Source: Thermoplasmata archaeon (GTDB taxonomy: Archaea; Thermoplasmatota; Thermoplasmata; Lutacidiplasmatales; UBA184). From it: a DNA stretch of 64,000 bases. The notes under the pieces were generated by a model. The model did not search any database. It was not told the origin of the DNA and worked only from the letters and a program-made list of their open reading frames with translations. The DNA is taken from NCBI GenBank assembly GCA_021796385.1, contig JAJYXQ010000030.1, positions 60,607 through 124,606 on the forward strand, written 5' to 3'. Positions 25,101 to 59,899 of the stretch are shown here, piece by piece (the first letter of the stretch is position 1; every line of letters begins with the position of its first letter). Made by a program: the position numbers and the translations under genes.

Positions 25101-26191
25101 CCGGTTCGAGCCCGCTCTCGCTCGCAGCCTATACCGTTACGCCATCGACGATCAGCGTGGGTACCACGGCAACGTTCACCGTGGGGGCTTCCGGCGGGTA
25201 TACACCGTATGCCTACAGCTACCTTGGACTACCCGGGGGATGCACCTCGGCGGACCTCAGCAGTCTCTCGTGCACGCCCACCACCGCCGGGGTCTTCCAG
25301 GTGACGGCGACGGTTACGGACGCGAAGGGCGCGCAGGTCCAAGGCAATGCAACATTGACGGTGCAACCTCAATCCACCGGCGGCCCGACAATCACTGCCT
25401 TCACGATATCCCCGGCACGGATCACGCTAGGCGGTTCTACGGTCTTCACCACCACTGTTTCCGGAGGAGTGCCCCCCTATACGTACTCGTTCACCGGGCT
25501 ACCGTCCGGATGCCAGTCGACATCCCCTACGTTCACCTGCACTCCCACGGCAACCGGGAGTTTTGCCATCTATGTCGATGTGACAGATACCAACGGAGCG
25601 AGCTATACGGCATCCGGTGCCCTTACGGTCATCCCGGCGGGGATACCACTGGCCATACCCATCTTGACGATCTCATCGGCCAGCGTGATCGCGGGGAGCC
25701 AGATAACACTCACAACGTCCGAGAGTGGCGGGGTCAGCCCGTACAGTTACATCTACTCGGGCTTGCCGAATGGATGTACTTCTGAGAATCTCTATAGATT
25801 CTCTTGCAACCCAACCCAGGTGGGTCAGTTCACCATAAGCGTTGAAGTGACGGACGCGGCCGGACACAGAGCAAATTCCACGGGAGTGCCTCTGTCCGTA
25901 CAATCGATCAACAGCCAATCTTCCGGAAACTCGAGCCAGACCATCTTAGGGCTCAGTCCGTTCGATTGGGTCGTGATCTTGGTGATCGTCGCGGTCGTAG
26001 TGGCAATAGTGGCCGTTGTGTTGCGCCAGAAGGGACGAAAGGGCACCGTTCCCCCTCCCTCGCCCCAACCCTGGGCTCCACCTCCCTCGATACCACAGCA
26101 ACAGAACTGGGCCGGGTCCCCGACGGGTTACCCCCCTCAACCACCGAATCCCGGGTATGGACCGGCCCCACCCCCTCCGCCTGGGTGGTAG
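22184..26191 (+). CDS. Sedolisin-family (S53) serine-carboxyl peptidase with PKD and five Cys-paired Ig-like modules, TM and Pro-rich tail
   Basis: Prodomain (PLYHHFMTGEEFDQMFAP); E-x3-D in GETMLDIEWAHVFAPNA; ASGDCG oxyanion site; GTSLACPSTAAM; VSGAGYTTQPGWDPVTGLG. Confidence 0.9.
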   Translation: MRWQLMALCERRRFNVVVISALVLVGLLQLPGALFGAISQESLSPASTATYGVPGLGPVQGQLVLGAPLSSSTIVTGTLVFPGQDPTLQAQIAQSVNDPTSPLYHHFMTGEEFDQMFAPSLSLQDSLRSYLVAHGANVSVVNPFFWNIAGTASSLGAAFGTSFHHARLSGKEGFFPSHPLELPVEYRALGVEIQSGFQSFVAPHPANLLRWHPPTGARGSLNRPGATLSLNMSMTNGGFFLYTGTADYVNPPTNMNGTYELNITGGAAPYTITWNWGDGSREVLTASSAHVFANHMYYIPAQADYCNSVACWNLTVSVTDKAGDSGTMTVGVFTGFSPMTGQLYYDLKPLFKLGDSGAGTKIGLGEECDPSFANSQYMADANKFSRMFGLPLFTTTTLVLMGSGASTCSGGQAGWSGETMLDIEWAHVFAPNATLEVDLANSDPGEGDATWLTTSNGVFIASNSWGGATSGYDTTWNQAASQGQSYLTASGDCGSAGLSTSYPADIPTGVGVGGTQVYPMASGVFGTEYAWNGTTDPNGCANDEGSTGGYTTAYPAPAYQQGMQGFGLQDPSGCTSVTCRGVPDISAIGGTWVELVDNGSWVLSAGTSLACPSTAAMLDVMYQYNGTANKANGMANYGLYAIAKGSSYHTGFFDIQVGNNLVSGAGYTTQPGWDPVTGLGSFNVSQLAQLLAKENGNTKPYAPLTVVMSTNVTYGPASLSVSFGADTAGGTSSLSGYSYIWNFGDGTTSPSTTYFTSHVYASPGVYHASVNVTSGATSATSNSVTIVVAKSISGGSGILITSFTATPNPGTVGSSVTFAVSASGGTTPFTYAYSVLPPGCTTQNASSLTCTPTSLGTWNVTATVTDAAHNSASKVLQFKVNPSASGNPTVTSFAASPNPDTQGATTTISATVTGGTPPYSYAYSGLPTGCTSSNASLLSCTPQTSGTFPVSLVVTDSVGKHAYANISLVVSAPGSSPLSLAAYTVTPSTISVGTTATFTVGASGGYTPYAYSYLGLPGGCTSADLSSLSCTPTTAGVFQVTATVTDAKGAQVQGNATLTVQPQSTGGPTITAFTISPARITLGGSTVFTTTVSGGVPPYTYSFTGLPSGCQSTSPTFTCTPTATGSFAIYVDVTDTNGASYTASGALTVIPAGIPLAIPILTISSASVIAGSQITLTTSESGGVSPYSYIYSGLPNGCTSENLYRFSCNPTQVGQFTISVEVTDAAGHRANSTGVPLSVQSINSQSSGNSSQTILGLSPFDWVVILVIVAVVVAIVAVVLRQKGRKGTVPPPSPQPWAPPPSIPQQQNWAGSPTGYPPQPPNPGYGPAPPPPPGW

Positions 26192-44581: not shown

Positions 44582-44834
44582 CCAGGGAACGCTCTGCCGT
44601 GTCCAGACACGAGAGTAGGTCATCCAAACTCCGCAGTAGTTCCGGTAGGTTCCTCGCGTCTAGCGTGATGGATAACTGATCCCGTGCTTGCGTGGTCTTA
44701 GCGAACCCCGCGTTATCGGAATGGATGGATCGCGCGAGGATCTCAGCCGTTGCAGGGTCCGGGCATGTCCGTTGGAGACGAATGCGGGGTCGGACCTCAC
44801 TGTCTCTCTGTTGGCCTATCCCGTCCGTGGTCAT
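44526..44834 (-). CDS. pcc1: KEOPS subunit Pcc1-like protein
   Basis: IRLQRTCPDPATAEILARSIHSDNAGFAKTTQARDQLSITLDARNLPELLRSLDDLLSCLDTAERSL resembles Pcc1; start trimmed to MTTDG. Confidence 0.7.
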   Translation of the reverse strand: MTTDGIGQQRDSEVRPRIRLQRTCPDPATAEILARSIHSDNAGFAKTTQARDQLSITLDARNLPELLRSLDDLLSCLDTAERSLATASRTRDGTHSAHKPKP

Positions 44835-47014
44835 TATGCCCAAGCGAGCGGCGCATCGTAGGTGAGGTCCATGTTGACCGCTCCACCAGACGTGGTGGCC
44901 ACACATCCGATCATCGCCGTGCCCCCAGAGGAAAGGAAGGAGACGGTACCGTTCGTCGTGAGATTGGCTTGGGAACCAGGAACGAGTGAGGTGATGGCGG
45001 TGTTCTGGTACGCGATCGCCTTAGGTAACTGCAGGACCACCACCCATACCGGGGTCCCGCTCCACCACTGAACATTCACTTTCTCAAGAGGAAGGGAGAC
45101 ATTGTGCAGGAAGGGCCAGGGATCAGACTCGATCTGATTGACGTTGAGGTAGAGGGCACATTTCATGTCGATCGTGTAGGTCGTTTGGACCACGGGAACC
45201 AGAGTCGTGGCGAGTACGATACCGAGGACCAGGACAAAAACGACAAGGAGGGACCCGGCACGGGAAACGGTCCTCTGCACCGGGACTTCGGCGAGGCCCA
45301 GTGCCTGTGCCACTTCGGATACCCTCTTTCTGGGGGCCGTGATACCTTTCCATGAGACCCCCTGATCGCGCGTTCCACTGGTCGATGGATGAGAATACGG
45401 GTCCCGGATGAACTCGACATCGCCCACGTCCGCCATTCCTTCGACCCACCCCTGTCGGAGAGCGACTGAGCGAACTTCACCGAGCGGCAGTTGATTGGTC
45501 CTCCCCTCCCGGGGGAATGTCGAGATCACATGCCGGTCGGTGAGGAGATATTGCGTCCGGAGCCCATAGGCGATGGAAAAGGCCAGCGGGAGCAAAACGG
45601 CGACGGCCAACAAGTACTCAAGGATCACGGAATTCCCGCTCCCGAAGAACCATGCAAAGATCATGACGGGGGGTACAATGACTGTCAAGCTGAGCAGGAT
45701 GTGTCCCGGCCATGATGGCAACACCTTCCACCATCTTCGTGCCCCTAGGAGGACGAACACATACCCCGCGATGGCAGAGCCTAGCGTAACGAAAAGAGTA
45801 AGTTCCAATGCTTGCAGGATCGAACCCTTGCTGCCCAGGGTGAGATTCTGCATCAGACCAGCGAATTGCATCGTGAGGTAGTAGTTGGAGAACCCGAACA
45901 AGAACAGGCCTAGGCCAACATAGAAGAGTGCACGCAGTTGGAGTATATGGACGATGGAGGGGCGTGCATACACTTGGATCTTCTCACTTCCTAGCCATGG
46001 TTGCGACGATATCTTGCGGAAAGCCCGCGGAGACGGTACTATTGCGAAATAGAGGACGGCAACCCAGGCATCGATCGCTAAGATGCCAAGGACCTCCCCG
46101 ACCGCACCGGGCGGGCTGCCGAGGCCGCCTGTGACACCGGCAAAGAAGATCAGGACCCCGGTGATAACGGTCAAGGAGCCAAGAACCAATCTCGCTCCTG
46201 CCCCGGTCCGGCTGGTGGGGGACAGGGCATGGGCCAAGAAGGCCAACACGCCAGCGATGAGAGCGACAATCCCTACGATGACCCCCACGGGCGCCAATCC
46301 TCGAGAGAGTCCCAAGGGAACGATGACACCGGAAAAAAGCGGAAGCAAGAAAATACCGATCGCCAGTCCCACAAGAGCGACGATCCATCCCGACAATCTC
46401 CGGGAGGCTACGAAGTTTGCAAGGGTACCGCTGAGAACCACAAAGAAACCATATGCTACCAGAACCATTCCCCAGTACCAGGGCAACACGGGATGGCCGA
46501 AGGCCGCTGCGATCAGGGCGTAAAAGAGCAATGTGCCTATGGCCAGAGCTACCATACCCCGACCAAGCGGGAGGCGCCCTTCCCGGTAAAGACCGAACCC
46601 CCACAAGAAGATGCTGATCAGGGACTGGAGAAAGAACCAGAGAGAGAACACCACGTGAAAGGTCTCAAGTTGACCCGGGGTCTGGTGAAAGACCCCAATG
46701 AGGACGAGCAGGATACCGGATAGGATGAAGGAGAGACTGCCGGCCTTCTCGAATCGGTTCCTTGAAACCAGATAGAGGTAGACGGCGAAGGCGGCGATGA
46801 TGAGGCCGGCCGGGACCATGCCCACGTAATCATAGACCCACGCGTACGGGGTCAGGGTGGGATCCCCCATGTAGCTCAGGGCTCCACCCGAACTCGCCGT
46901 CCAGTTCCACCAGGGGTTGAGATGGACGCAGATCAAGATGACCACCCAGGCGTAGATGGCGCCGATCGGCCCGATGAGGTAGCCCCTTTTTGCCATTCCG
47001 CTCGATGCACTCAT
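44834..47014 (-). CDS. Module gene A: multipass DUF998-like membrane domain fused to bacterial-PH-like domain and extracellular C-terminal domain
   Basis: N-term WWNWTASSGGALSYMGDPTLTPYAWVYDYVGMVPAGL; PH-like region QYLLTDRHVISTFPREGRTNQLPLGEVRSVALRQG; C-term WWSGTPVWVVVLQLPKAIAYQNTAITSL. Confidence 0.75.
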   Translation of the reverse strand: MSASSGMAKRGYLIGPIGAIYAWVVILICVHLNPWWNWTASSGGALSYMGDPTLTPYAWVYDYVGMVPAGLIIAAFAVYLYLVSRNRFEKAGSLSFILSGILLVLIGVFHQTPGQLETFHVVFSLWFFLQSLISIFLWGFGLYREGRLPLGRGMVALAIGTLLFYALIAAAFGHPVLPWYWGMVLVAYGFFVVLSGTLANFVASRRLSGWIVALVGLAIGIFLLPLFSGVIVPLGLSRGLAPVGVIVGIVALIAGVLAFLAHALSPTSRTGAGARLVLGSLTVITGVLIFFAGVTGGLGSPPGAVGEVLGILAIDAWVAVLYFAIVPSPRAFRKISSQPWLGSEKIQVYARPSIVHILQLRALFYVGLGLFLFGFSNYYLTMQFAGLMQNLTLGSKGSILQALELTLFVTLGSAIAGYVFVLLGARRWWKVLPSWPGHILLSLTVIVPPVMIFAWFFGSGNSVILEYLLAVAVLLPLAFSIAYGLRTQYLLTDRHVISTFPREGRTNQLPLGEVRSVALRQGWVEGMADVGDVEFIRDPYSHPSTSGTRDQGVSWKGITAPRKRVSEVAQALGLAEVPVQRTVSRAGSLLVVFVLVLGIVLATTLVPVVQTTYTIDMKCALYLNVNQIESDPWPFLHNVSLPLEKVNVQWWSGTPVWVVVLQLPKAIAYQNTAITSLVPGSQANLTTNGTVSFLSSGGTAMIGCVATTSGGAVNMDLTYDAPLAWA

Positions 47015-47496
47015 GTCTTAGGTTAGGGAACAGGATTCCGGGGTAAGAACTTGACTTGAGTTGCGGCTGGAAAGTGCTCCACCTCATTGCACAACCCGTA
47101 AAGGGCGGCTGTGGCCTTGGACGTGTTCCGGCGGGTGCGGTCCCCGAGTTCACTGAAAGAATTCCCAAGGGAGATGCAGTGACCTTGGTTGAAGTACCCC
47201 TCATACGCGTCCGACTCCCAGCAACAATCCGACAAGACGGGACGGAGCCAGAAAGCGGTCTTGGGGAAGGCGATCAATATCTTTGCCCAGCGAACACTGG
47301 AAAGCGCGGCAGGTCCTGGGAAGGACTCGCCAGACTCGCCCGTCGCCTTAACCTGCCCATCCATTCCCGGTGAGGGAGCTTAACGACTCCGAGACTTAAC
47401 AGTTCCGCTCGCTCCTTCCCACCGGTGATCCGGGTATCGCACGGTGCGTGAGGAGTGCTACCTTATATCTTCCGAAGTGAATGCCGTCCTTCAAGG

Positions 47497-49146
47497 ATGG
47501 TACGCAGGTCCGTCGTTCTGGCCATCGCACTGGGTATGGTGCTGGGAAGCTTCTATCCCGTGGCGAATTGGAACTTGTCTACACTATCACCCGGAGTTTC
47601 TCCTTCCGAGAACGTCTTGACCCGAGCGGAGTCCGCCCTCGCAGCCGGCGCAGGACCGGCCAATGGCAATGCGCTCACCTGCGCTTCCATCGGAACTTTG
47701 AGCGCCGGATGCGCCATCGCGTCTCCGAAAACGGCTGTGTCGGGAGGTGGCATCGGTTGGGGAAAGCTTTGTTCGTTCGACACCTGTCCGCCCCCGGCCC
47801 GCGGCGGGGCTGGATTGACCTACGATCCTGCGACCGGGTACGTCGTACTCTTTGGTGGGATCAAGGGACTTACTGCAGCGGCTGGCACCACGTTCAACGA
47901 CACCTGGCTCTTTCAGAACGGTGAGTGGAAGCGCCTCAACATATCGGGTCCCTCCCCGCGCCTTGGGGAGTACATGGCCTATGACTACAAAGATGGTTAC
48001 ATCCTTCTCTTTGGTGGCGGTCCCTATCTGACCCTGAATGGTTCGCTCTATTATCACGACACCTGGGAATTCCAATCAGGCCACTGGAAGGAGTTGCACC
48101 CCGCGAGCTACCCATCGGCCAGGGGGCTCGGTGGGATGGTCTACGATGCTTCGGACGGGTATCTCCTCATGTTCGGTGGCATGAGCAGTCAAACCGACAT
48201 CCATAGTGACACTTGGACGTACTCTGGGGGGACGTGGGATAACATCACCTCCAGTCTTTCCGTTTCCCCTCCCCCCCTTCTCGCACCAGTCATGTCGTAC
48301 TATCCTCCCGCGTCGGAGGTGGTCGTATTCGGGGGGGCCACACCTGAACCGGGGTTCGAGTTCGGACAAGACCTCTCCGTGACATGGACATACTCTCACG
48401 GGGCTTGGAAGAACGTTTCCGCCACTTCGGGAACCCCCCCTGACGGTCGGATACTTGCGTCGATGGCATATGACGCCGCCCAAGGCTTCCTTGTCCTCTT
48501 CGGGGGTTGGAACACATCCACCGGAGCCCTCTATGGCGACACCTGGCTCTACTCGGGCGGGCACTGGGCGATCTACTTTGCCTCACCCACGCCTTCCCAA
48601 CACATCATCGGCGCATCCGCGATTTCGACAACCTCTACGGCGGGCCTCTTTTTCTTCGGGGGGATAGTCGGAAACTACTCGGCGTATTGGGCCACCAACG
48701 CCACATGGTCCTTTGGCCCTCCGCCTGCGAACGCCACGGTTACGATAACACCTCCGACCCCATTCGATGTCACCTTTGATATCGCTCCGAGGGCCTGCGA
48801 TGCGGTCTATTTCAACGGAACACAGGTCGAAAGTGGGGGACAGCTCTCGGTGATCCCCGAAGCCTACAGTGTGTTGGCCCCCACATGCCCTGGCTACTAC
48901 TTCGGCAGTTGGTACGTCTCTGGAGGGATCGAGCCAGCCTCAGCCTCCGCCTCAGATACCACTGTCAATGTGGTGGGAAACGGCACGCTTACTCTGTTCT
49001 ACCAACAATCTCCCACTCTGGACCAACCGAACGATCGATACCAGCTTCTCCCGGTCGACCTGACAGTGACCATCACGGCAATCGTCCTAGCCTCGGCGGC
49101 TCTCCTCTTCTTACGCGGCCGCTCCCAACGTAGGGCTTCTCACTAG
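47497..49146 (+). CDS. Module gene B: kelch-repeat surface protein with C-terminal TM
   Basis: Repeated YDPATGYVVLFGG...NDTWLFQNGEW; PGYYFGSWYVSGG C-terminal domain; TM LTVTITAIVLASAALLFL. Confidence 0.85.
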   Translation: MVRRSVVLAIALGMVLGSFYPVANWNLSTLSPGVSPSENVLTRAESALAAGAGPANGNALTCASIGTLSAGCAIASPKTAVSGGGIGWGKLCSFDTCPPPARGGAGLTYDPATGYVVLFGGIKGLTAAAGTTFNDTWLFQNGEWKRLNISGPSPRLGEYMAYDYKDGYILLFGGGPYLTLNGSLYYHDTWEFQSGHWKELHPASYPSARGLGGMVYDASDGYLLMFGGMSSQTDIHSDTWTYSGGTWDNITSSLSVSPPPLLAPVMSYYPPASEVVVFGGATPEPGFEFGQDLSVTWTYSHGAWKNVSATSGTPPDGRILASMAYDAAQGFLVLFGGWNTSTGALYGDTWLYSGGHWAIYFASPTPSQHIIGASAISTTSTAGLFFFGGIVGNYSAYWATNATWSFGPPPANATVTITPPTPFDVTFDIAPRACDAVYFNGTQVESGGQLSVIPEAYSVLAPTCPGYYFGSWYVSGGIEPASASASDTTVNVVGNGTLTLFYQQSPTLDQPNDRYQLLPVDLTVTITAIVLASAALLFLRGRSQRRASH

Positions 49147-49163
49147 GTCCGACCCACACCGGG

Positions 49164-49181
49164 TCCCCCTTCAGAGGGGGA
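49164..49181. terminator. Stem-loop between convergent B and C
   Basis: TCCCCCT-tcag-AGGGGGA. Confidence 0.45.
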
Positions 49182-49188
49182 AGTCAAA

Positions 49189-52100
49189 TTACGGACCGTT
49201 AGGGGGGGAACTCCCGTAGGGTGGGGAAGGTGGAGAAGTCGGGGGAGAGGCTCCCGCGCCTCCCTTCATCCTCTTCCGGTGGAGCAGTAGGCCGGCAACC
49301 CCACCCACTATGCCTACCGCGACCAAGATCAGGATGATAGGTAGCAGGTAACTGCTGATGCCAGACGCAGGTGCCGACGTGGACCCCGAAGTTACCGTCA
49401 ACTCGGTGATAGCGTTCGAAGAGCCCGAGCTATCGTTCACATATACCCGGATCGTGTAATTCCCGGCGGAAGTCGGTTGGCAGGAGAGCGTAGGGACATC
49501 TTCGGAAAGGCATCCGGCAGGCAGTCCGGTGTATGCGTAGCTTAAGACCTGAGTCCCACCGCTGGCCGTCACTTTGAGTTGGGTGACGCTCCCGAGGGGC
49601 ATTGAGGAAGGGTTCGCGACGAAGGAACTGATGGTCGGGCTGCCCGCACCCCCGCTTGCCGGTGTAACGTGAAACAAAGTATTGCTCGAGGCGCTGTGGG
49701 AAGCGCTATCGTTCACATAGACCGTAACCGTGTAGTTGCCCGAGATCGATGGAGTGCATGAGAAACTTGCCTTATCCGTGGTCGCGCAGCCTGAGGGTAG
49801 ACCAGTATAGTCGTAGGCCAAGGGCGGGGTACCCCCGGAGGCGGAGACCGATATGATTACGGGGGTTCCAACGCTCACGGTGCTCGGCGTGATCGTGAAT
49901 GACGAGATTGAGGGAGCTCCCGAAGGCTGATTGACGGTCAGATTGAGAGAGCCAACTCCGCTCAACTTCTTCGTGTCGGTCACTGTGACTTGAATGTGGA
50001 AAGGTCCGCCGCCGACGGTGGGCGTGCAAGACAGAGACGATGTGTTCTGGGTGAGGCACCCCGTCGGGAGACCGCTATAGAAGTATGTCAAAGCTCCTGT
50101 TCCGCCCGAAGTGGTGACGCTCAAGACTGTGGCTTGATTGACATTCACCGGGTTCGGGTTGGCAATGAAGGATGTGACTCGGGGTGCAGTGGCCGCTGGG
50201 GCATTGAGGGTGAACGAGGAACTACCGGTGATGTTCTTCCCCGAAGCGTCGGTGACCGTCACATTCACGAGGTAGGTCCTGGGAGTGGCGGAGAGGCTGG
50301 TAGCGCAGATCAATGATACCACATTGCTGGTGCTGCATCCCAACGGAAGACCGGAATAGACGTAGGTGTAGGGAGCGGTTCCAGTTCCCGGGGTCACCGT
50401 GGTGTTCAAGTAGACGGTCTGTCCCGCGGTGATCGTGGAGGGCAACGCCGTGAACGATGTGAGCGCAAGCGGAGCGTTCACGGTAACGCTTGCGTTTCGG
50501 CTCACCTTGTTTCCCGCCGAGTCCATGGCCACTACGGAGATTGTGAACTTTCCCGTGACAAGCGGCTTGCACGAGAAGCTAGCGGGCTGTGTCCCATTCG
50601 TGCATCCACTCCCTCCCGGGAGACCCGAATAATTGTACACCACGGGAGGCAGGCCACCGGAAGAGGTCACACTGAGCGTCATAGTCGTGTTGGTGTCGAG
50701 CACGTTGGGGGAGATGGTGAAAGAGGGGATGGACAAGTGGGCATAGACGTTCACCGTCGTCGACGCACTGCTGCTGTGTCCCAGGGAGTCGTTCAGGTAG
50801 ACCGTCACGTTGTACGTCCCTGGTACAGAGGGGTAACAGCTGAGGGAGGTGGAATTCCGGGTCGTGCAGTTAGCCGGGAGGCCAACGTATGCATAATGAA
50901 TGGGGTTTGGCCAACTGCCATTGGTCACCTGGAACTTGGTCGATTGGTTGGCCAAGAGGCTCGAGGGTGTCGCATTGAAAGAAAGGATCGAGGGCCCCCC
51001 GGTCTTCGTTACCGTGATGTTCGCCTCGTCACTGATGGCGGAACAATTGTAAGTCACGTTAGCCCAGAGCCGGCCTGTTCCTGTGGTACTGCTCGCAGTG
51101 AACTTGACCGACGGGCCAGTGGTTGCGTTGAGGGTTCCCAGGGACGCCGGGCTGAAGTGCCAAGAATAATGGGCACTCGGTATTGTGACGCCATTCTGGT
51201 TGATTGCCGTGGCATTGAACACTTGGGAACCCGAATACGCCAGTGCTGCCTGAACGGGGGTGATGCTGCTCTTGTTGAGGAGGATCACCTTGAAGTTACC
51301 CCACAAGGGCACCAGACCACCTGGGAATGGTACGGAAGTACCGACCGTCAACTGGTCGATCCCAAGAGTGTTCACCTGCAAATGCCCCTGGATTCCGACC
51401 ACTTTCATTGAGGCGTTGAACTGGGGCATGGCGTTCGTGGCAGCAGGGGTATACCAGCTTCCTGCCCCGCTCTTGACACCGACGGCATAGGGAACGTTCG
51501 TCGTGGGCATGTTGGGCGTGGCTGCCCCCGACATCCCATAGCTGACCGCCAAGAAACTGGGCCCCACACTAGCTCCCTCCTCGCAGATCGTACCTGCCGC
51601 GGCAGCGACGCCAAGATTGTACGTCCCGTTCTCCCAAGCGATTCCGCCACTGACCGTGCCACCCACGATAGGGCTTCCGTCGAAGGTGAATGTCCACCAG
51701 TCGCCGACCTTGTGGGTGATGACAAACTTGTGGGTGCTACCCTGGCTGAATGTGGTCCAGCCAGGGCCGTTGATCCCAAAGATGTTCTCATTCACGATCA
51801 ACGTCCCGTTAGGTAGGAACGCTGCGGGAACCGCGACATTGGATACCCCATAGGTAGAATTCGTGGTCATGGCGATCCCGGCGGCCGCAACAGGGGGAGT
51901 TGAGGATCCGGCGGGGGGAGCCGACTTGATGGGATCCGCTACTCCGAGCACTAAGAACTGGTTGTTCCCGAGATTGAGACCGTTCGGGACGGTGATGGTC
52001 GAGTTGACCCCGGTATTGTTAACGAAGTCTCCAACGTTCCATGTTCCGGCGGCACCAGTCCCCGCGGCCGGCAGATTGAGCAACCCACTCGATGGGCGGA

Positions 52101-52275
52101 CCGCGGAGTGATCACAGGGAACGGTTGGATATGCGCCTGAGAGTACATTCGAGGGCAGGTCAAAAGGCCCTTTCGAAGTCAACGCTGGACCCTGTAAGGT
52201 CACGGGGTTCAGCAGCACGATCGACGAAGATACAGTCGCCAACACGGCAAGCGCCACGAGGAGGGCCACGCGCAT
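49189..52275 (-). CDS. Module gene C: surface protein, unknown N-terminal domain, six Cys-paired Ig-like modules, TM, Pro-rich tail
   Basis: FVITHKVGDWWTFTFDGSPIVGG...WENGTYNLGV; six copies of SFxxxPxxxxxGxxxxxxVxxxGG...YxGLPxGC...SCxP; TM then RKRMKGG, PPTSPPSPPYGSSPPNGP. Confidence 0.82.
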   Translation of the reverse strand: MRVALLVALAVLATVSSSIVLLNPVTLQGPALTSKGPFDLPSNVLSGAYPTVPCDHSAVRPSSGLLNLPAAGTGAAGTWNVGDFVNNTGVNSTITVPNGLNLGNNQFLVLGVADPIKSAPPAGSSTPPVAAAGIAMTTNSTYGVSNVAVPAAFLPNGTLIVNENIFGINGPGWTTFSQGSTHKFVITHKVGDWWTFTFDGSPIVGGTVSGGIAWENGTYNLGVAAAAGTICEEGASVGPSFLAVSYGMSGAATPNMPTTNVPYAVGVKSGAGSWYTPAATNAMPQFNASMKVVGIQGHLQVNTLGIDQLTVGTSVPFPGGLVPLWGNFKVILLNKSSITPVQAALAYSGSQVFNATAINQNGVTIPSAHYSWHFSPASLGTLNATTGPSVKFTASSTTGTGRLWANVTYNCSAISDEANITVTKTGGPSILSFNATPSSLLANQSTKFQVTNGSWPNPIHYAYVGLPANCTTRNSTSLSCYPSVPGTYNVTVYLNDSLGHSSSASTTVNVYAHLSIPSFTISPNVLDTNTTMTLSVTSSGGLPPVVYNYSGLPGGSGCTNGTQPASFSCKPLVTGKFTISVVAMDSAGNKVSRNASVTVNAPLALTSFTALPSTITAGQTVYLNTTVTPGTGTAPYTYVYSGLPLGCSTSNVVSLICATSLSATPRTYLVNVTVTDASGKNITGSSSFTLNAPAATAPRVTSFIANPNPVNVNQATVLSVTTSGGTGALTYFYSGLPTGCLTQNTSSLSCTPTVGGGPFHIQVTVTDTKKLSGVGSLNLTVNQPSGAPSISSFTITPSTVSVGTPVIISVSASGGTPPLAYDYTGLPSGCATTDKASFSCTPSISGNYTVTVYVNDSASHSASSNTLFHVTPASGGAGSPTISSFVANPSSMPLGSVTQLKVTASGGTQVLSYAYTGLPAGCLSEDVPTLSCQPTSAGNYTIRVYVNDSSGSSNAITELTVTSGSTSAPASGISSYLLPIILILVAVGIVGGVAGLLLHRKRMKGGAGASPPTSPPSPPYGSSPPNGP

Positions 52276-52449
52276 GCGAAGCACTATGACACTCGTGTAT
52301 TAACTCCTTTGGGGCATGTCCCGGAACTGGGATTGTTTTACTCCACCCAAAACTGCGGACAAAGACTGGCCGCGCCCAGCAGAATCCTTAAGCCGAACCA
52401 CCGGAGTACCGGCGGAAAACCTTTAGTAACGTCCGTGCGTGACTATCTC

Positions 52450-55269
52450 ATGCTCTATCGGGTCGCCGTAGTCGTAGCTATTGTAAGTCTGATTGCCGTT
52501 TCGGGGTACCTCCTACCGGGAACGGGCTTCGGGAGGGTGGCAAGTGCGGGGACCCCATTCTCGATTCCTTCTCAATTCGTACAGGATTGGGCGAGGGTCG
52601 CCCCGACCTGCACTGCGGATAACGCCCATCCATCCTTCACGATCGCTGGGCTAAATGCCGAAGGTACGGGTATCACCGGAACCACGAACATCACGAAGTT
52701 TGCCAACAACACCGGAGTCAATACGACCACCGACGTTCCCAGCACCTCGCTCTCTACAGGGCAGATCATTGGAATGGGAGTGGCCGAGCCTATCTCCAGC
52801 TCAGAAATCGTCGGGGTTGGTGCTGCGTTGGGTTCCCAATATGGTATAACTGAAGGGGTTCCCCTTGTCATCCTACCGAATGCCACCACGAAGGGTTCCG
52901 TGGGCTACTACTACAATGCGCCTGGTACGGCGAATTTGGGTCTGGGCGGACTTAGTCAAGGTAGCCCCTACGTCTTTGCCATTACCCATAAGGCCGGAAC
53001 ATGGTGGACCTTTACGTATGCGTCCCCCGGGGGGACGGCGTACCCAATCGTTGGGAACCAGAGCTGGGAGAACGGAACGCTCAATCTGGGAGTCTCCAAG
53101 ATCCCTGGGACGGCCTGTGAGTTTGGTGGCCTTCTCGGCCCCTCCTTCATCGTTCTGTCGTACGGTTCAGGTTCGGCGGTCCCTCAGTTCCCCAAGACTT
53201 CCGTGCCCTATGCCATCGGAGTGACTACCTCGAGCGGCAAGTACGTGCCCCTTTCCGCCAATATCCTTCCTCAGTTCAATGCGACCCTGGGCACGATGGG
53301 GATCCAAGCGCACGATCAGAACGCTGCGATCGGGTACAACTCTCTGGTCGTGGGCTCCACCTCGGCCGGTGTGGCGTACCCCGGGGCATACTTGCCGGCC
53401 TGGGGCAACTACAAGGAGATCATCCTCAACACCAGCTCGGTGAGCCCTGTCTTTGCTTCCCTTGCATACAACGCCACCCAGCAGTTCAACGCCACCGCGC
53501 TGGGAGTCACGGGGGCGACCGTTTTGGGAGCCCATTACCATTGGGGGTTCACTCCGTCGACCCTGGGGGCCCTCAGTGGCACTTCGGGAGCATCGGTGAA
53601 CTTCACTGCAGCGGGCATCACGATCTCCGGAAAGGTGTGGGTAAATGTGACCTATAATTGCTCCGCCATCAACAGTACCGCGAACGTCACTGTGACAAAG
53701 ACGGGCGGCCCGTCGATCAACTCGTTCACGGTGGTTCCCCCCGTGATAACCGTAGGTGAGAACACTACGTTCAACGTCACCCATGGACCGTGGTCCCGTC
53801 CGATTTCGTACGCCTATGCCGGGCTCCCTACCGGCTGCACAGGGGGGAATGTCACCAGCTTCACCTGCGCACCCACGGCGTCGGGGAATTACTCTGTGAC
53901 CGTATACTTGAACGATACCGCGGGCCACTCAAGCTCGGCCACCGCTCCCCTCACGGTAGACAAGGACCTGACGGTTGTTTCCTTCACCTCGACCCCGAGC
54001 GTATTGACGGAAAACACCACGACCACGTTCAAGGTGGTGGCCAGCGGTGGGATCCCCTTGCTCACGTACAATTTTAGCGGGATGCCTGCAGGCTGTGGGG
54101 CAGGTATCGAACCTTCGGTCTTCTCTTGCCGGCCCACGAACTATGGCTCCTTCAATGTCTCAGTCAACGTGACCGATTCCGCGGGGCATTACGCGACCCG
54201 GACACTCTCCCTGAAGGTCAACACCCCGTTGTCGGTATCTGGGGTCACGGCGTCTCCTTCGGCGGTAAACGTCGGCCAGACGACCTACATCAACGTGACC
54301 GTGATCGGTGGCACCGCCCCTTACGGTTTTGTCTACCACAACCTTCCGCAGGGGTGCACCTCGTCTAACCTGAGCAAGATCCAATGTACCCCCGGGATCA
54401 ATGGGACGTTCCTTGTAACTGCAAACGTGACCGATGCTTCGGGAGCGAATGCTTCAGGGTCGACACTATTGATCGTCAACTTACCCCCTGTCCCGGTGAT
54501 CAGTTCGTTCTCCGCCTCCCCGGCCGCCGTAAACGTGTCCCAGTCGACGGTGTTCACAGTGGTGGCGTTGGGGGGAACGCCGCCATTGTCCTATACCTAC
54601 ACCGGGTTGCCATCCGGTTGCACCTCGCAGGACACCGGGAGCCTTGCGTGCACACCGACCCAAGCCGGGAATTATACCGTGACCGCAAAAGTGAGCGACT
54701 CGGCTGGGCATTCCGCGATCCCCAAATCTACGACCCTGACGGTGATCCAACCTTCGGGAGGCAGTGCGCCGGTGATCGCTTCGTTCACGATCTCACCTTC
54801 GCCCGTCCCGCTGGGTTCAAGGATAACGGTCACCGTGAGCGCTACTGGGGGGACCGGCACGCTGTCCTATGCCTACGTAGGACTTCCGACAGGGTGCCTC
54901 TCGACGGACGTCACGAGCTTTACCTGCACTCCGACCTCGGTGGGCAACTACACTGTGACAGTCTACGTGAACGACTCTGCCAAGCATTCCGTGACCCAGA
55001 CGACCAGTGTGTCGGTGTTATCGTCTTCCGGAACCACCCCGAACAATTCCACAGCCTCCGGTTCCGGCTTCTTCAGCACATGGGTGATCCTCGCCATCGT
55101 AGCGGTCGTCGTGGTGGCAATCGTTGCCGGAGTCCTCTTGATGCGACGTAAGAAGACTTCAGGACCGAGCACAATGCCTTCACAGAACGCCCCGTCCCAG
55201 GAGCCAACTGGGAGGGACTTCACGGGCTATCCACCTCAACAGCCACCCTACACCCCACCACCCCAGTAG
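52450..55269 (+). CDS. Module gene C': paralogue of C with five Ig-like modules
   Basis: FAITHKAGTWWTFTYASPGGTAYPIVGNQSWENGTLNLGV; colinear with C; TM WVILAIVAVVVVAIVAGVLLMRRKK; tail GYPPQQPPYTPPPQ. Start trimmed to MLYRVAVV, about 27 nt after TATA-like ctttagta. Confidence 0.82.
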   Translation: MLYRVAVVVAIVSLIAVSGYLLPGTGFGRVASAGTPFSIPSQFVQDWARVAPTCTADNAHPSFTIAGLNAEGTGITGTTNITKFANNTGVNTTTDVPSTSLSTGQIIGMGVAEPISSSEIVGVGAALGSQYGITEGVPLVILPNATTKGSVGYYYNAPGTANLGLGGLSQGSPYVFAITHKAGTWWTFTYASPGGTAYPIVGNQSWENGTLNLGVSKIPGTACEFGGLLGPSFIVLSYGSGSAVPQFPKTSVPYAIGVTTSSGKYVPLSANILPQFNATLGTMGIQAHDQNAAIGYNSLVVGSTSAGVAYPGAYLPAWGNYKEIILNTSSVSPVFASLAYNATQQFNATALGVTGATVLGAHYHWGFTPSTLGALSGTSGASVNFTAAGITISGKVWVNVTYNCSAINSTANVTVTKTGGPSINSFTVVPPVITVGENTTFNVTHGPWSRPISYAYAGLPTGCTGGNVTSFTCAPTASGNYSVTVYLNDTAGHSSSATAPLTVDKDLTVVSFTSTPSVLTENTTTTFKVVASGGIPLLTYNFSGMPAGCGAGIEPSVFSCRPTNYGSFNVSVNVTDSAGHYATRTLSLKVNTPLSVSGVTASPSAVNVGQTTYINVTVIGGTAPYGFVYHNLPQGCTSSNLSKIQCTPGINGTFLVTANVTDASGANASGSTLLIVNLPPVPVISSFSASPAAVNVSQSTVFTVVALGGTPPLSYTYTGLPSGCTSQDTGSLACTPTQAGNYTVTAKVSDSAGHSAIPKSTTLTVIQPSGGSAPVIASFTISPSPVPLGSRITVTVSATGGTGTLSYAYVGLPTGCLSTDVTSFTCTPTSVGNYTVTVYVNDSAKHSVTQTTSVSVLSSSGTTPNNSTASGSGFFSTWVILAIVAVVVVAIVAGVLLMRRKKTSGPSTMPSQNAPSQEPTGRDFTGYPPQQPPYTPPPQ

Positions 55270-55291
55270 CGAAGGAAGGAACCGCTACTGG
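55263..55291. terminator. Perfect 9-bp stem-loop overlapping the C' stop codon
   Basis: CCAGTAGCG-aaggaaggaac-CGCTACTGG. Confidence 0.5.
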
Positions 55292-55424
55292 AGGAGCCAA
55301 CCGTTGGTAAGAGAACCTTTCTCCGGGAGTAGAAGTCCCGAGGATAAGGATCGAGCGACTGAGCACACTCCGGAAGGGTAGGCCCCGGAGCTCGCAAAAG
55401 GGAGACAAGGAGCGAACTGCGAAA

Positions 55425-57077
55425 CTAACGAAGCGGGGCAGCCTTCCGTCGGTTTACCCGAGTGACGCCCACAACAAAAATCGCGAGCGCGATGGCGATG
55501 CCGGCCAGGGATTCGGCGAACGAAGCCCCCCTCCACTGGTAACTTGTTCCGGAGGGTTGCACATAGTAGGCGGTCACCGTTCCACTTCCGACCACGTTAA
55601 GTTCGCTTGTGGCGTTCTCGGGACTTCCCACACTGACGCCACCGCTAAAGTACCACCCCTTGAACTCGTATCCCGGACAGGGGGTAGCGCTCACCACATA
55701 GAAGTTACCCGGGGTCAGGTCCTCCCTCGATCCGGAAGACAGGTGCGTTCCATTGAAACTGATGCTGTTGCAATTCCGAGGCGCCACCGAAAAGTACACT
55801 CCATACGGGGTGGGAGGAGGCTGGCTGGTGATCGTTGTGTTCGCCGGAGGTGGCCCAAAGACCCACGTCGCATTCGTGGCACTGTACGCACTCAGATTCC
55901 CCACAAGCCCACCAAAGAGCACGAGCCCAGACGTCGGGGTGGTCGAAATGAGACTAGCGCCGATGATCGATGAGGCGGGAGTGGGGGACAAGTAAAGCTC
56001 TGACCAGTAGCCATCGATGTAGATCCAGGTGTCCCCGAAGATGAGATCGGCGGTGGTGTTCCACCCTCCGAACAGCACCATGAAACCTTGGGCGGGGTCA
56101 TACGCCATGGCCCCAAGCATACGGCCATCCGGGATGCTCCCGCGGATCTTTCCGGTCAGGTTCGTCCAGATGCCATGAGCGTAGGACCACGTTTGGTCGA
56201 GATCGAGACCGAACTGCACCCCGGGGGATGGTGTGGCCCCTCCAAAGAGGAGTACATTTGCCGAGGAGGGGTCAAAGGCGAGAGAAGGAGCGAGCAAGGG
56301 TGGTGGATGTTCCGACAGGCTTAGATTTTTCCACTGCCCATGGGCGAATGTCCAAGTGTCAGAGTGGATGTCCGTTTGGCTGCTCATCCCCCCATACATC
56401 AGCAGGTACCCGTCGATGGGGTCCCATGCGATCCCGCCCAGTCCTCGGGCCGATGGGTGAAAAGAAAGGTCGAGCTTCGTCCAAGTTCCGTTCTGAAACT
56501 CCCATGTGTCGTCATAATAGAGAGAGCCATTCAGGGTGAGATACGGTCCACCCCCAAACAACAGGATGTAGTGGTCCGCGGGGTCGTATGCCATGTACTC
56601 CCCGAGGCGTGCGCTCGGGCCAGATATGTGCAACTGCGTCCAGTTTCCATTGGCAAAAACCCACGTATCGTCGTAGGTGGTGTTGGGCGAGAGCGTCAGG
56701 TTATTGATTCCACCGAACAAAACCACGTATCCGGTGATAGGGTCAAAGGCCATTCCCGCCCCACCACGCACCGGAGGGGGGCAATGCCCCTTGGCGCAGA
56801 TCAGGCTCCATCCACTATCTGAAGCTCGAGGGGATCCTCGGGTGGTTTGGTCTATGCACCCCATGCTGAAAGTCCCGACCGCAGAACAAGTGAGAGGAAT
56901 CCCGCCGGCGGGTCCCTTTCCTTCGGCGAGGCTATCGCTCGCAAGGGAGAGTTCCAAAGTCTCGGTCCCGAGCGATCGGGATTCCTTGTATCCCGGAGCG
57001 GGGTGAAGAGGTCCGATCGGGGACCCACCGATAAGGACAAGCAAGACCACAATGATCGCGATCGGATTGCTTGCCAT
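55425..57077 (-). CDS. Module gene B': kelch-repeat surface protein, paralogue of B
   Basis: ARLGEYMAYDPADHYILLFGGGPYLTLNGSLYYDDTWEFQNGTW parallels B PRLGEYMAYDYKDGYILLFGGGPYLTLNGSLYYHDTWEFQSGHW. Start trimmed to MASNPIAI. Confidence 0.85.
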   Translation of the reverse strand: MASNPIAIIVVLLVLIGGSPIGPLHPAPGYKESRSLGTETLELSLASDSLAEGKGPAGGIPLTCSAVGTFSMGCIDQTTRGSPRASDSGWSLICAKGHCPPPVRGGAGMAFDPITGYVVLFGGINNLTLSPNTTYDDTWVFANGNWTQLHISGPSARLGEYMAYDPADHYILLFGGGPYLTLNGSLYYDDTWEFQNGTWTKLDLSFHPSARGLGGIAWDPIDGYLLMYGGMSSQTDIHSDTWTFAHGQWKNLSLSEHPPPLLAPSLAFDPSSANVLLFGGATPSPGVQFGLDLDQTWSYAHGIWTNLTGKIRGSIPDGRMLGAMAYDPAQGFMVLFGGWNTTADLIFGDTWIYIDGYWSELYLSPTPASSIIGASLISTTPTSGLVLFGGLVGNLSAYSATNATWVFGPPPANTTITSQPPPTPYGVYFSVAPRNCNSISFNGTHLSSGSREDLTPGNFYVVSATPCPGYEFKGWYFSGGVSVGSPENATSELNVVGSGTVTAYYVQPSGTSYQWRGASFAESLAGIAIALAIFVVGVTRVNRRKAAPLR

Positions 57078-57111
57078 CGGATAGCACGTCTCAGGTTCGC
57101 AGGGTAAATAA

Positions 57112-57920
57112 TCCTTTGGTGACATCCTTCCCACGGCTAAAGCCGAGGGCTTCCCGGTTCGATCGGGACGGCATCCAGCTCCCTCAGCGGAAGCTCTGTT
57201 CGAGCCCAATTCAGTATGTTCACGGCGGTGTTCACGTCCAGGTCCATGACTGCGCCGCAGGAGCATGAAAGCTCCCGTTCCCACAGTGCCTTTGGGACGC
57301 TCTGACCACACACCGAGCAATCGCGGGCCCTTCCTTTCGCCTCCACGAACACCACGGTCAAGTTAGCCTCTTCCACTTGGCTTGAAAGGGCATTCAGGAA
57401 GTCCCGCCATGAGGCACCCGCTATGCTCCGATGCAGTCCCCGGCTGAGACCCTTCGCTACCATCTCTGTGATGTCCTTCCTCTCGACCGCTATCCAGTCG
57501 AACCGTTGGACTAACGCTCCTGGCAGGCGACTCTTGAGGTTGGGGAACTCCGAGCGCAGGTCGAGGGAACTGCGCCCATTCATGCGTTTCACGACACGGT
57601 GTATTCCGAAGCTCGGGTCCACATTCATCCGGAGATGGACAGGTCTGGCATGACCTTCATCACCACTATGTCTACTCGTAGACCCGCGGCAACCACGCGG
57701 AGTATTTCCTTCAGGCGTGTCTCGACTGGTCCAGTGAGAACGCCACGCCGGTATTTGGGACACCACACCACCCGGTAGGTGCACCTGAAATGATGTTCCG
57801 GTTCGACTAATACTCCATCATCGCCCAAATACACGAGGCCACCATATAATGCTCCCGGCTCGCGAACCCCAGTCCTAAAGGGCGAGACATGCGCTCGCCT
57901 ACTTTTGGTCAAAAAGGGAG
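57112..57920 (-). mobile_element. Decayed IS200/IS605-family element
   Basis: TnpA-like N-terminus, TnpB-like C-terminus, and right-end-like gaagccctcggctttagccgtgggaaggatgtcac on the minus strand. Confidence 0.8.
57137..57912 (-). pseudogene. tnpA (frameshifted) joined in frame to the 3' part of tnpB
   Basis: ORF 57625-57912 CTYRVVWCPKYRRGVLTGPVETRLKEIL...VMKVMPD then stop; continues one frame over as VHLRMNVDPSFGIHRVVKRMNGRSS...LKSRLP, then TnpB-like FDWIAVERKDI...CSVCGQSVPKALWERELSCSCGAVMDLDVNTAVNIL. Confidence 0.82.
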
Positions 57921-58010
57921 AGGAGGGCTACCGACTCACCAGACCGGCGCCTGTCAACGAAAGGATTAAGAGGATGCCACCCTAGAGCGCAATGCGGCGT
58001 CCGGGGCATT

Positions 58011-58694
58011 TTGGTCGATTCAGCATCTAACGAGTTGGCACCCGAAAACGACCGGGGGTTGACGCTGTTTTTGAGACGCTTTATGCGCGAAAGATACCCC
58101 CCGATCGGGTTCCTATTGGGCCTATTCGCCGTGATCTACTTCTGGGTGGCAGTGTCCATCGATGCCTATCTCAACTCCTCTTGGTGGCGTTTCACAGGAA
58201 GCTCCTTCAGCGCCCTCGGTGACCCAAGCCCCAACGCTACGGGGGCGGCGGCGGGGCTTTACTGGATATACAACGACGTGGTGATCTTCCCGACCGCCGG
58301 GTTGATCCTCCTTTTCTCTGCCGCGCTGATCCTGGTCGCTCGGAACAAGATCCAAGCGACCGGGGGCTCCTTCCTAATGGTATCCGGCATCTTCCTCGCC
58401 CTCGTCGGCATCTATCACGGGGGACCCCCGACCCCGGGGTCGGTCCACGATTTCGTGTCCACCTGGTTCTTCATCCAGGCCGCGTTCGGGATATTCATTT
58501 GGGGGATTGGAACTCTATGGCAAGGAGAACGAGCGATCGGCTGGTCGAACGTTGCCCTCGTGATCGGTGCCATCGTGATCGGATTCAGCGTCAAGTTCGG
58601 GTCCGTCGCTGAGACTGAGGCCTTTGCCATCGTGGTCATTGATATTTGGGTGATCTGGCTGTACTTCCTTCGAAAGTCATTTTTTCGCCCATGA
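58011..58694 (+). CDS. Module gene A' part 1: DUF998-like membrane protein
   Basis: SSWWRFTGSSFSALGDPSPNATGAAAGLYWIYNDVVIFPTAGLIL... parallels the N-terminus of A. Start uncertain (TTG 58011 or ATG 58083). Confidence 0.72.
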   Translation: MVDSASNELAPENDRGLTLFLRRFMRERYPPIGFLLGLFAVIYFWVAVSIDAYLNSSWWRFTGSSFSALGDPSPNATGAAAGLYWIYNDVVIFPTAGLILLFSAALILVARNKIQATGGSFLMVSGIFLALVGIYHGGPPTPGSVHDFVSTWFFIQAAFGIFIWGIGTLWQGERAIGWSNVALVIGAIVIGFSVKFGSVAETEAFAIVVIDIWVIWLYFLRKSFFRP

Positions 58695-58762
58695 CCCCGG
58701 ACGGTCGAGTGAACCAAATATCCCTTAAGGCATCTCAAGTCCCGGGGAAAGAGGTCCCCTGA

Positions 58763-59899
58763 ATGGAACCCCAAGCCGGCTCCTCCGCGATGGAGTATCG
58801 CCCTTCGCTCGCCTATGCACTGCAAGTTCCCGCTTGGGTCCTCCTTCTGTCGGGAATAGCCCTCTTCTTCGGTGGGTACTACTACCTCTCGACCAATATC
58901 GTCAAGGTGATACTGTCCCAAATTCCCGTTGTCCGTTTCATCGCCATAACGCTGACACTCTACTTGACGGGGTACATCCTGATTCTGGTCGGCAGCCTGC
59001 GTTGGTTCCGGCTGTTCCCTCGTTGGGGGGGCAGCATGATCCTCTCGGTCGTCATCGTCGTCCCCTTGGTGATGGTCGCCACATGGTTCGATGCGGCTGG
59101 GAACCGGCTGATGTTACTCTTCATCCTGATCGTGGGGCTTGTGATCCCCGCGATAGCAGCGATTCTTTGGCGCTTTCGATTGCACTATGAGTTGACTTCA
59201 ACAGAGGTCAGGGGGGCCCCCGGGAGTTCCGGAGGATGGCAGTCCTCGATGGCCCTCCAGCGGGTACATTCCGTGGCGGTTTTCGAGAGCGTCGGCCCCT
59301 TCGATACCGGCCATGTCCAATTCCATACCGATCTGTTCCGACCGGCTTCGGAGGGGGACACGGGTGCATCGTGGATAGAGTGGCGGGGAATCGCGCACCC
59401 GCGACAGGTTGCCGAATCGATCAAGGCCCGAGTGCCGTTGGCGGAGGGAACCTACCGCCGAGCGGTGCGTCCCTGGACCACGTTCGCCGCCACGTTCGCT
59501 CTGGTTGCGGTGGTAGTGCTCTTGCTTGAAGCCTTCCCCGTGTATGCGGCATCGGACGCTATGGTCTCGAACTGTGCCCTCTGGGTCTCAGCCCAAAGTA
59601 TCGAAAGCAATCCTTGGCCGTACGTACACAATGTCACGATACCAATCGGGCGCGTGAGCTTGCACTGGTGGAGTGGAACACCGGTCTGGTTCCTATTGAT
59701 CCAGATTCCGACTGGGATCGCATACCAGAATACGCCCATCTCATCCCTTTACCCGGGGAACCAAGCTAACTTGACGGAGAGCGGATCGGGGACATTCACA
59801 TCCGCTGGGGGGTCGACCATGGCGCTGTGCGTTGCCACCACGACCGGGGCTTCGGTTTCGCTGGTCTTGAACTACTCGGCTCCCCTGGTCTGGGAATAG
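58763..59899 (+). CDS. Module gene A' part 2: PH-like domain membrane protein, paralogue of the C-terminal half of A
   Basis: CALWVSAQSIESNPWPYVHNVTIPIGRVSLHWWSGTPVWFLLIQIPTGIAYQNTPISSLYPGNQANLT vs A CALYLNVNQIESDPWPFLHNVSLPLEKVNVQWWSGTPVWVVVLQLPKAIAYQNTAITSLVPGSQANLT. Confidence 0.75.
   Translation: MEPQAGSSAMEYRPSLAYALQVPAWVLLLSGIALFFGGYYYLSTNIVKVILSQIPVVRFIAITLTLYLTGYILILVGSLRWFRLFPRWGGSMILSVVIVVPLVMVATWFDAAGNRLMLLFILIVGLVIPAIAAILWRFRLHYELTSTEVRGAPGSSGGWQSSMALQRVHSVAVFESVGPFDTGHVQFHTDLFRPASEGDTGASWIEWRGIAHPRQVAESIKARVPLAEGTYRRAVRPWTTFAATFALVAVVVLLLEAFPVYAASDAMVSNCALWVSAQSIESNPWPYVHNVTIPIGRVSLHWWSGTPVWFLLIQIPTGIAYQNTPISSLYPGNQANLTESGSGTFTSAGGSTMALCVATTTGASVSLVLNYSAPLVWE

Follow-up and report, generated by a model that had tools for sequence, protein, structure and literature searches.

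Two diverged copies of a putative four-gene surface module in mirror arrangement in a Thermoplasmata archaeon

What brings three unrelated families of membrane and surface proteins together twice at a single locus, in palindromic order and with every strand inverted? The question arises from a 64,000-nucleotide stretch of an uncultured Thermoplasmata archaeon, hereafter the window (assembly GCA_021796385.1, contig JAJYXQ010000030.1, positions 60,607 to 124,606), located in a metagenome-assembled genome (MAG) of 2.28 Mb and 81 contigs, denoted here G000. Between 44.8 and 59.9 kb the gene order is A- B+ C- followed by C'+ B'- A'+, where the sign gives the strand, A stands for a membrane-spanning protein, B for a kelch beta-propeller protein, and C for a protein with immunoglobulin-like (Ig-like) repeats; the two sets, termed copy 1 and copy 2, meet at their C genes in head-to-head orientation. 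Judging from sequence comparisons, we consider it rather likely that the locus represents two diverged versions of a conserved four-gene surface module (A, B, C, and a further gene termed A0), whose products form a membrane-anchored surface assembly.

A sequence-only reading of the window had proposed a mirror-image duplication of a three-gene module, and its coordinates, strands and pairings of A with A', B with B', and C with C' all proved correct. The mirror arrangement comprises seven open reading frames (ORFs), as A' consists of two genes, A0' and A'b. B and B' share 53% protein identity over 544 aa, C and C' 45-47% over 840-956 aa, and residues 338-725 of A align with A'b at 36% identity over 391 aa; measured against 100 shuffled sequences, the alignments reach z-scores of 180 for B/B', 109 for C/C', and 92 for A/A'b. 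Inverted similarity is detectable also at the DNA level, where B/B' reach 66% over 968 bp and C/C' and A/A' show shorter matching stretches; as the same reading had noted, the symmetry does not extend to the genes flanking the two sets in the window. An artefact of assembly is ruled out, because the copies diverge by roughly 50% and because an independent MAG, G001 (JAKBKR010000129), has the start of A0' placed divergently beside C. The mirror form as such is less surprising than its appearance suggests, since a pair of adjacent copies must be either tandem or inverted.

Comparison with relatives (denoted G001, G002, etc.) reveals that the ancestral module, as reconstructed from the sequences, comprised four genes. 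A is composed of a DUF998 unit, a bundle of transmembrane (TM) helices, a bacterial PH-like domain, and a C-terminal extracytoplasmic beta-sandwich with two cysteines, and displays 15 hydrophobic segments; A0 consists of DUF998 alone. Both A (55.9 bits) and A0' (65.4 bits) exceed the PF06197 cut-off of 30. The tree of DUF998 sequences splits into two clades (support 100/100), one of A0 and one of the DUF998 part of A, with the window gene A0' falling in the former. A0 immediately precedes A, in the same orientation, in G001, G002, G004, G016 and G021, and at least one intact A0 is kept in every genome with a fully assembled module; the contig of G011 ends beside B. In copy 1 the full A is kept and A0 has decayed to a remnant between A and B, where the segment 47139-47696 aligns with the intact A0-B region of G001 at 74% DNA identity; in copy 2 A0' is kept and A' lacks the DUF998 half. 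Opposite DUF998 units have thus been lost from the two copies, so that the locus as a whole retains one A0 and one full A. A fission of A, by which the sequence-only reading had explained A', is ruled out by the DUF998 tree together with the presence of intact A plus A0 in relatives. The same reading was right to treat A, B and C as a module, while the fourth gene, evident in relatives, had escaped it along with the remnant in copy 1.

B contains a signal helix, a kelch propeller, and a C-terminal TM segment, and above-cut-off matches to Kelch_4 and KLHDC2-type models are present in both B and B'. C has a signal helix, a unique N-terminal domain, a series of PKD/Ig-like repeats, a TM segment, and a short tail; the PKD matches score 50.6 bits in C and 52.9 bits in C' (cut-off 23.5), and terminal TM segments are present. 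In both B and C a single hydrophobic TM segment is found at each end. The previously suspected change in module count amounts to about one Ig-like unit, with six repeats in C and approximately one fewer in C'. Elsewhere in the window (22184-26191) we found a 1335-aa exported protein, in which a sedolisin-type (S53) peptidase-like region is followed by PKD/Ig repeats resembling those of C. As the Ig repeats of C match this gene too, they were dropped as evidence of homology on their own, and the N-terminal domain of C was used as the query instead; a sequence search of the PDB with this domain gave no useful match beyond an Ig-like stretch.

Profile searches with alignments of the C-terminal part of A, B, and the N-terminal domain of C revealed one adjacent set in each of four relatives, ordered A- B+ C- in G002 and G003, C+ B- A+ in G021 (an identical relative order, read from the other strand), and A- C+ B- in G004. 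G016 possesses an A- B+ C- set plus a second one cut by the contig end, and the sets of G001 and G011 are seen partly, limited by contig ends. The same searches detected no module-type A, B or C in G006, which belongs to the same genus (g3) as G016, and among 400 genomes of the class no full-length A occurs outside g3 and the genus of the window (g1). MAG records that contain the module carry the label Thermoplasmata archaeon (YF1.bin117, YS4.bin60, DBS1-1.bin134, REEB18, clean282, clean3262), or bacterium in the case of DX1.bin10, and the isolate names suggest that the carriers come from mine drainage sites.

Given dozens of kelch hits per genome (37 in G000) and many Ig-repeat hits, one could argue that the sets are chance neighbours among numerous propeller and Ig-like surface genes and do not form any functional unit. 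We regard this as highly improbable, as A, B and C are adjacent wherever the contigs permit checking, and the members are well separated from other genes in score: full-length orthologs of module-type B exceed 680 bits (389 in the contig-cut second copy of G016) against at most 191 for other kelch genes, and the N-terminal domain of C exceeds 370 bits against 77 for the next match. Retention of A, B and C as a unit, anticipated from the window, is thus borne out by their co-occurrence in related genomes. Comparison with G001 gives a dN/dS ratio of 0.09 for A (part), B and C; with G002 the values are 0.12-0.18, synonymous sites being near saturation. The low values argue that the genes are maintained by strong purifying selection. 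A search with PADLOC gave no match and the possibility of a defence system was dropped; NCBIfam provides no useful name for A, B or C. Kelch-type hits are strongly expanded in G006, G021 and G048 (58 to 78 per genome). G016 has its two modules on contigs C52 and C61, and the B gene of the second is almost identical to its G011 counterpart; this MAG may therefore mix two species, or the copy may have moved.

Table 1. Features of the mirror-arranged locus; positions refer to the window, and likely true starts of B, C, C' and B' are inferred by comparison with relatives.
Feature	Position	Strand	Observations
A (copy 1)	44834..47014	-	726 aa; PF06197 E 5.6e-15; bPH_2 in 3/7 alignment members; fold model of A'b
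A0 remnant (copy 1), most of gene lost	47056..47310	-	profile E 8.5e-10; tblastn E 3.6e-5
B (copy 1), kelch beta-propeller surface protein	47455..49146	+	Kelch families; likely start ~47497 (vs G001/G002)
C (copy 1)	49189..52284	-	PKD and Y_Y_Y matches; likely start ~52275
C' (copy 2), about one Ig-like repeat less	52309..55269	+	47% identity to C; likely start ~52450
B' (copy 2), kelch protein	55425..57320	-	53% identity to B; likely start ~57077
Broken IS200/IS605 element	57137..57912	-	NF033573 E 1e-11; NF040570 E 9.8e-13
A0' (copy 2), intact stand-alone DUF998 membrane protein	58011..58694	+	PF06197 E 6.6e-18; A0-family tree 100/100
A'b (copy 2), A without DUF998 half	58763..59899	+	36% identity to A 338-725; AlphaFold pLDDT (predicted local distance difference test) 73

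Given the likely starts of C and C', the two genes diverge from a region of about 175 bp. The insertion sequence (IS) remnant that had been recognized between B' and A' is real and joins the front of TnpA to the end of TnpB; as B' probably starts near 57077 rather than at the ORF end at 57320, the element fills the B'-A0' intergenic region. A second fragment of the same element (83% match) is found at a contig end, G000:C81:1-258.

Which activity could unite such proteins? In the AlphaFold model of A'b, residues 7-229 match PH folds (Z 7-8), the first strand being followed by inserted TM helices, a further TM helix spans residues 238-257, and the beta-sandwich formed by residues 259-378 has its closest matches in GOLD and PPC domains, at a level (Z of about 8) that according to the search tool may be common; the top comparison, with GOLD, gives 8.1, and PPC, calpain C2-like and other domains score 7-8. 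The bPH_2 profile (PF03703) is matched by three of the seven A orthologs (best E 1.3e-7), the A'b of the window itself giving no match. From the predicted TM pattern, the PH-like domain of A would reside inside the cell and the beta-sandwich outside. B and C would be exported and held by one TM anchor each, the former presenting its propeller and the latter its N-terminal domain on an Ig-like stalk, while the membrane-spanning A, with A0 as a partner, may anchor or assemble them into a surface complex serving binding or adhesion. The two sets may then correspond to two versions of the assembly, or two binding specificities. Their split predates the divergence of this species from its closest relatives with a single module, and one DUF998 unit was subsequently lost from each copy; A0' and A would be shared between the two. 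A functional extracellular assembly, as suggested from the window, fits the topology and the co-conservation, and from these we infer the complex itself.

The bPH_2-like domain beside TM helices raises an alternative, by analogy: A might act in export like the bPH_2 proteins DdE/DdF (YdbS/YdbT type), whose deletion stops export of a leaderless bacteriocin (PMC8657885), with B and C as cargo or partners. We find this unlikely, as A has one bPH-like domain only, a YdbS partner is absent, and B and C have ordinary N-terminal signal helices.

Some hints about the assembly come from the ectodomain of A, which contains two invariant cysteines and, among 103 genomes of the family, is seen in genera g1 and g3 only. 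It occurs also in a 126-aa protein with one TM segment, whose gene overlaps that of a YNCE/NHL propeller by 4 bases (G000:C16 near 20.9 kb; G002:C5). This gene pair (G000:C16:18000-21300, G002:C5:96190-99740) is kept between species. At G000:C77:108800-109230 a single protein with a zinc ribbon, a proline-rich stretch, a TM segment, and an A-type ectodomain adjoins a propeller gene. Pairing of the ectodomain with propellers is therefore suggestive at the level of gene neighborhoods. A bolder version would have the two copies form one mixed assembly, with A of copy 1 and A0' of copy 2 serving both sets, and the outside beta-sandwich of A act as the domain onto which surface beta-propellers generally dock in these archaea; we hold this to be doubtful.

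Several observations weigh against a conserved surface assembly of this kind. As the co-occurrence spans no more than about eight related genomes, part of it could reflect shared descent alone, and the A0 of G003 is present but unlinked to its module. The fold model of the N-terminal domain of C is poor (pLDDT 49), and the fold matches of the outside domain of A are weak (Z of about 8, pLDDT 50-80). The pairing with propellers is not universal either, as in G003:C28 a similar zinc-ribbon TM protein with the A ectodomain adjoins exosome genes.

How old are the two copies, and did they arise at this locus? In the tree of concatenated sequences the nearest neighbour of copy 1 is G001, followed by G002 and G004 (support 100 at each node), and copy 2 remains outside (100/99). 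Single-gene trees agree with this result or leave the placement unresolved, and the tree of A0 puts copy 2 beside the g1 clade (98/95). The identity of aconitase to that of the window gives the same order of relatives (72% for G002, 69% for G004, 63% for G003). In the approximately unbiased (AU) test, a pairing of the two copies is rejected (p 4e-70, log-likelihood difference 270), as are grouping of copy 2 with G004 (p 0.006) and its placement within copy 1/G001/G002 (p 0.009); grouping with G003 is not rejected (p 0.32). The copies are therefore not each other's nearest relatives, which rules out a recent segmental duplication private to the lineage of the window. The mirror-image duplication of the sequence-only reading holds in that the sets are homologous and old, and fails as an event in this lineage, since single-copy relatives are closer to copy 1. 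Rejection of the copy 1/copy 2 grouping implies either an early split or an origin of copy 2 in an unsampled relative. A further candidate, prompted by gene order, was a chimera in G004 combining copy-1 B and C with copy-2 A0 and A; it is rejected by A0 (p 0.009) and left undecided by the C-terminal part of A.

We lean towards an old duplication in mirror form at the root of genus g1, where copy 2 attaches, followed by loss of C' and B' in G001 and of copy 2 in G002 and G004. The placement of copy 2 in the A0 tree agrees with this, as does the locus in G001, where the window stretch 52314-57957 (C', B' and the IS element) is replaced by 74 bases and the A0' beside C has 77% DNA identity, similar to copy 1. 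Copy 2 was therefore present in the common ancestor of G000 and G001, with C' and B' lost in G001; their gain in G000 instead is less likely. G001 itself, a 64%-complete MAG, may be mixed, as the aconitase on its contig C53 is only 59% identical to that of the window, compared with 86-87% for its module genes. An old duplication has its price, namely repeated independent losses together with an inversion, either in G002 or in the lineage of the window, and the AU result for G003 also speaks against it. Both G002 and G004 carry a single module at the same site, between a Pcc1-like gene and GH15/ECH genes, though differently oriented; G004:C13 and G002:C5 differ by an inversion of the B-C pair, which suggests that the locus is prone to inversion.

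The single module of congeners at the same position, the long branch of copy 2 (0.93) outside G001/G002/G004, and the inversion of the resident-like copy 1 relative to G002 would be expected if copy 2 had been gained from an unsampled related lineage and inserted beside a resident copy 1 in opposite orientation. To this scenario we assign a smaller, yet appreciable, likelihood. Several observations speak against it: GC and GC3 (GC content at third codon positions) are equal in both copies and like those of neighbouring genes, without any sign of foreign origin, no closer source was found in a pattern scan of 85,000 genomes or in 400 genomes of the class, and the A0' of G001 makes copy 2 older than the split between G000 and G001.

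Relatives of these archaea often lack a rigid wall. The module, whether duplicated in place or not, offers a fixed and testable gene set for membrane display of propeller and Ig-like proteins in archaea, and the opposite losses in two diverged copies represent a natural experiment that hints at exchangeable parts. DUF998 and bPH proteins in archaea have little assigned function, and a conserved association with surface proteins helps to confine the search for one.

With respect to known systems, our literature search found no paper on the A/A0/B/C gene set, in accord with the earlier impression that no system of this composition has been described; the domain types are known, and the combination is undescribed in the literature searched. 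DUF998 has the same fold as Frag1/DRAM/Sfk1 (PMC10584675); the N-terminal part of A and A0 match this family, and A differs by the fused PH-like domain and the outside beta-sandwich. The likeness of the latter to the GOLD domain of p24/TMED proteins is weak and concerns the fold only, at a Z of about 8 that many beta-sandwiches reach. With YdbS/YdbT proteins, of which DdE/DdF are needed for release of the leaderless bacteriocin, A shares a PH-like domain within a multi-pass membrane protein, but it is archaeal and has one bPH-like domain, the DUF998 fusion, and the outside domain; the YdbS/YdbT gene pair, with one plus three bPH_2 domains, is absent from the locus, where A has one bPH-like domain and its neighbour A0 DUF998 only. 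A further parallel is provided by surface-layer type proteins of archaea in which beta-propeller and PKD domains occur (Jing et al. 2002, as cited in PMC5498576). They have in common with B and C the exported kelch/YVTN propellers, PKD/Ig repeats, and TM anchors, whereas here the propeller and PKD proteins are separate, fixed together with a DUF998/bPH protein, and present in two diverged mirror copies.

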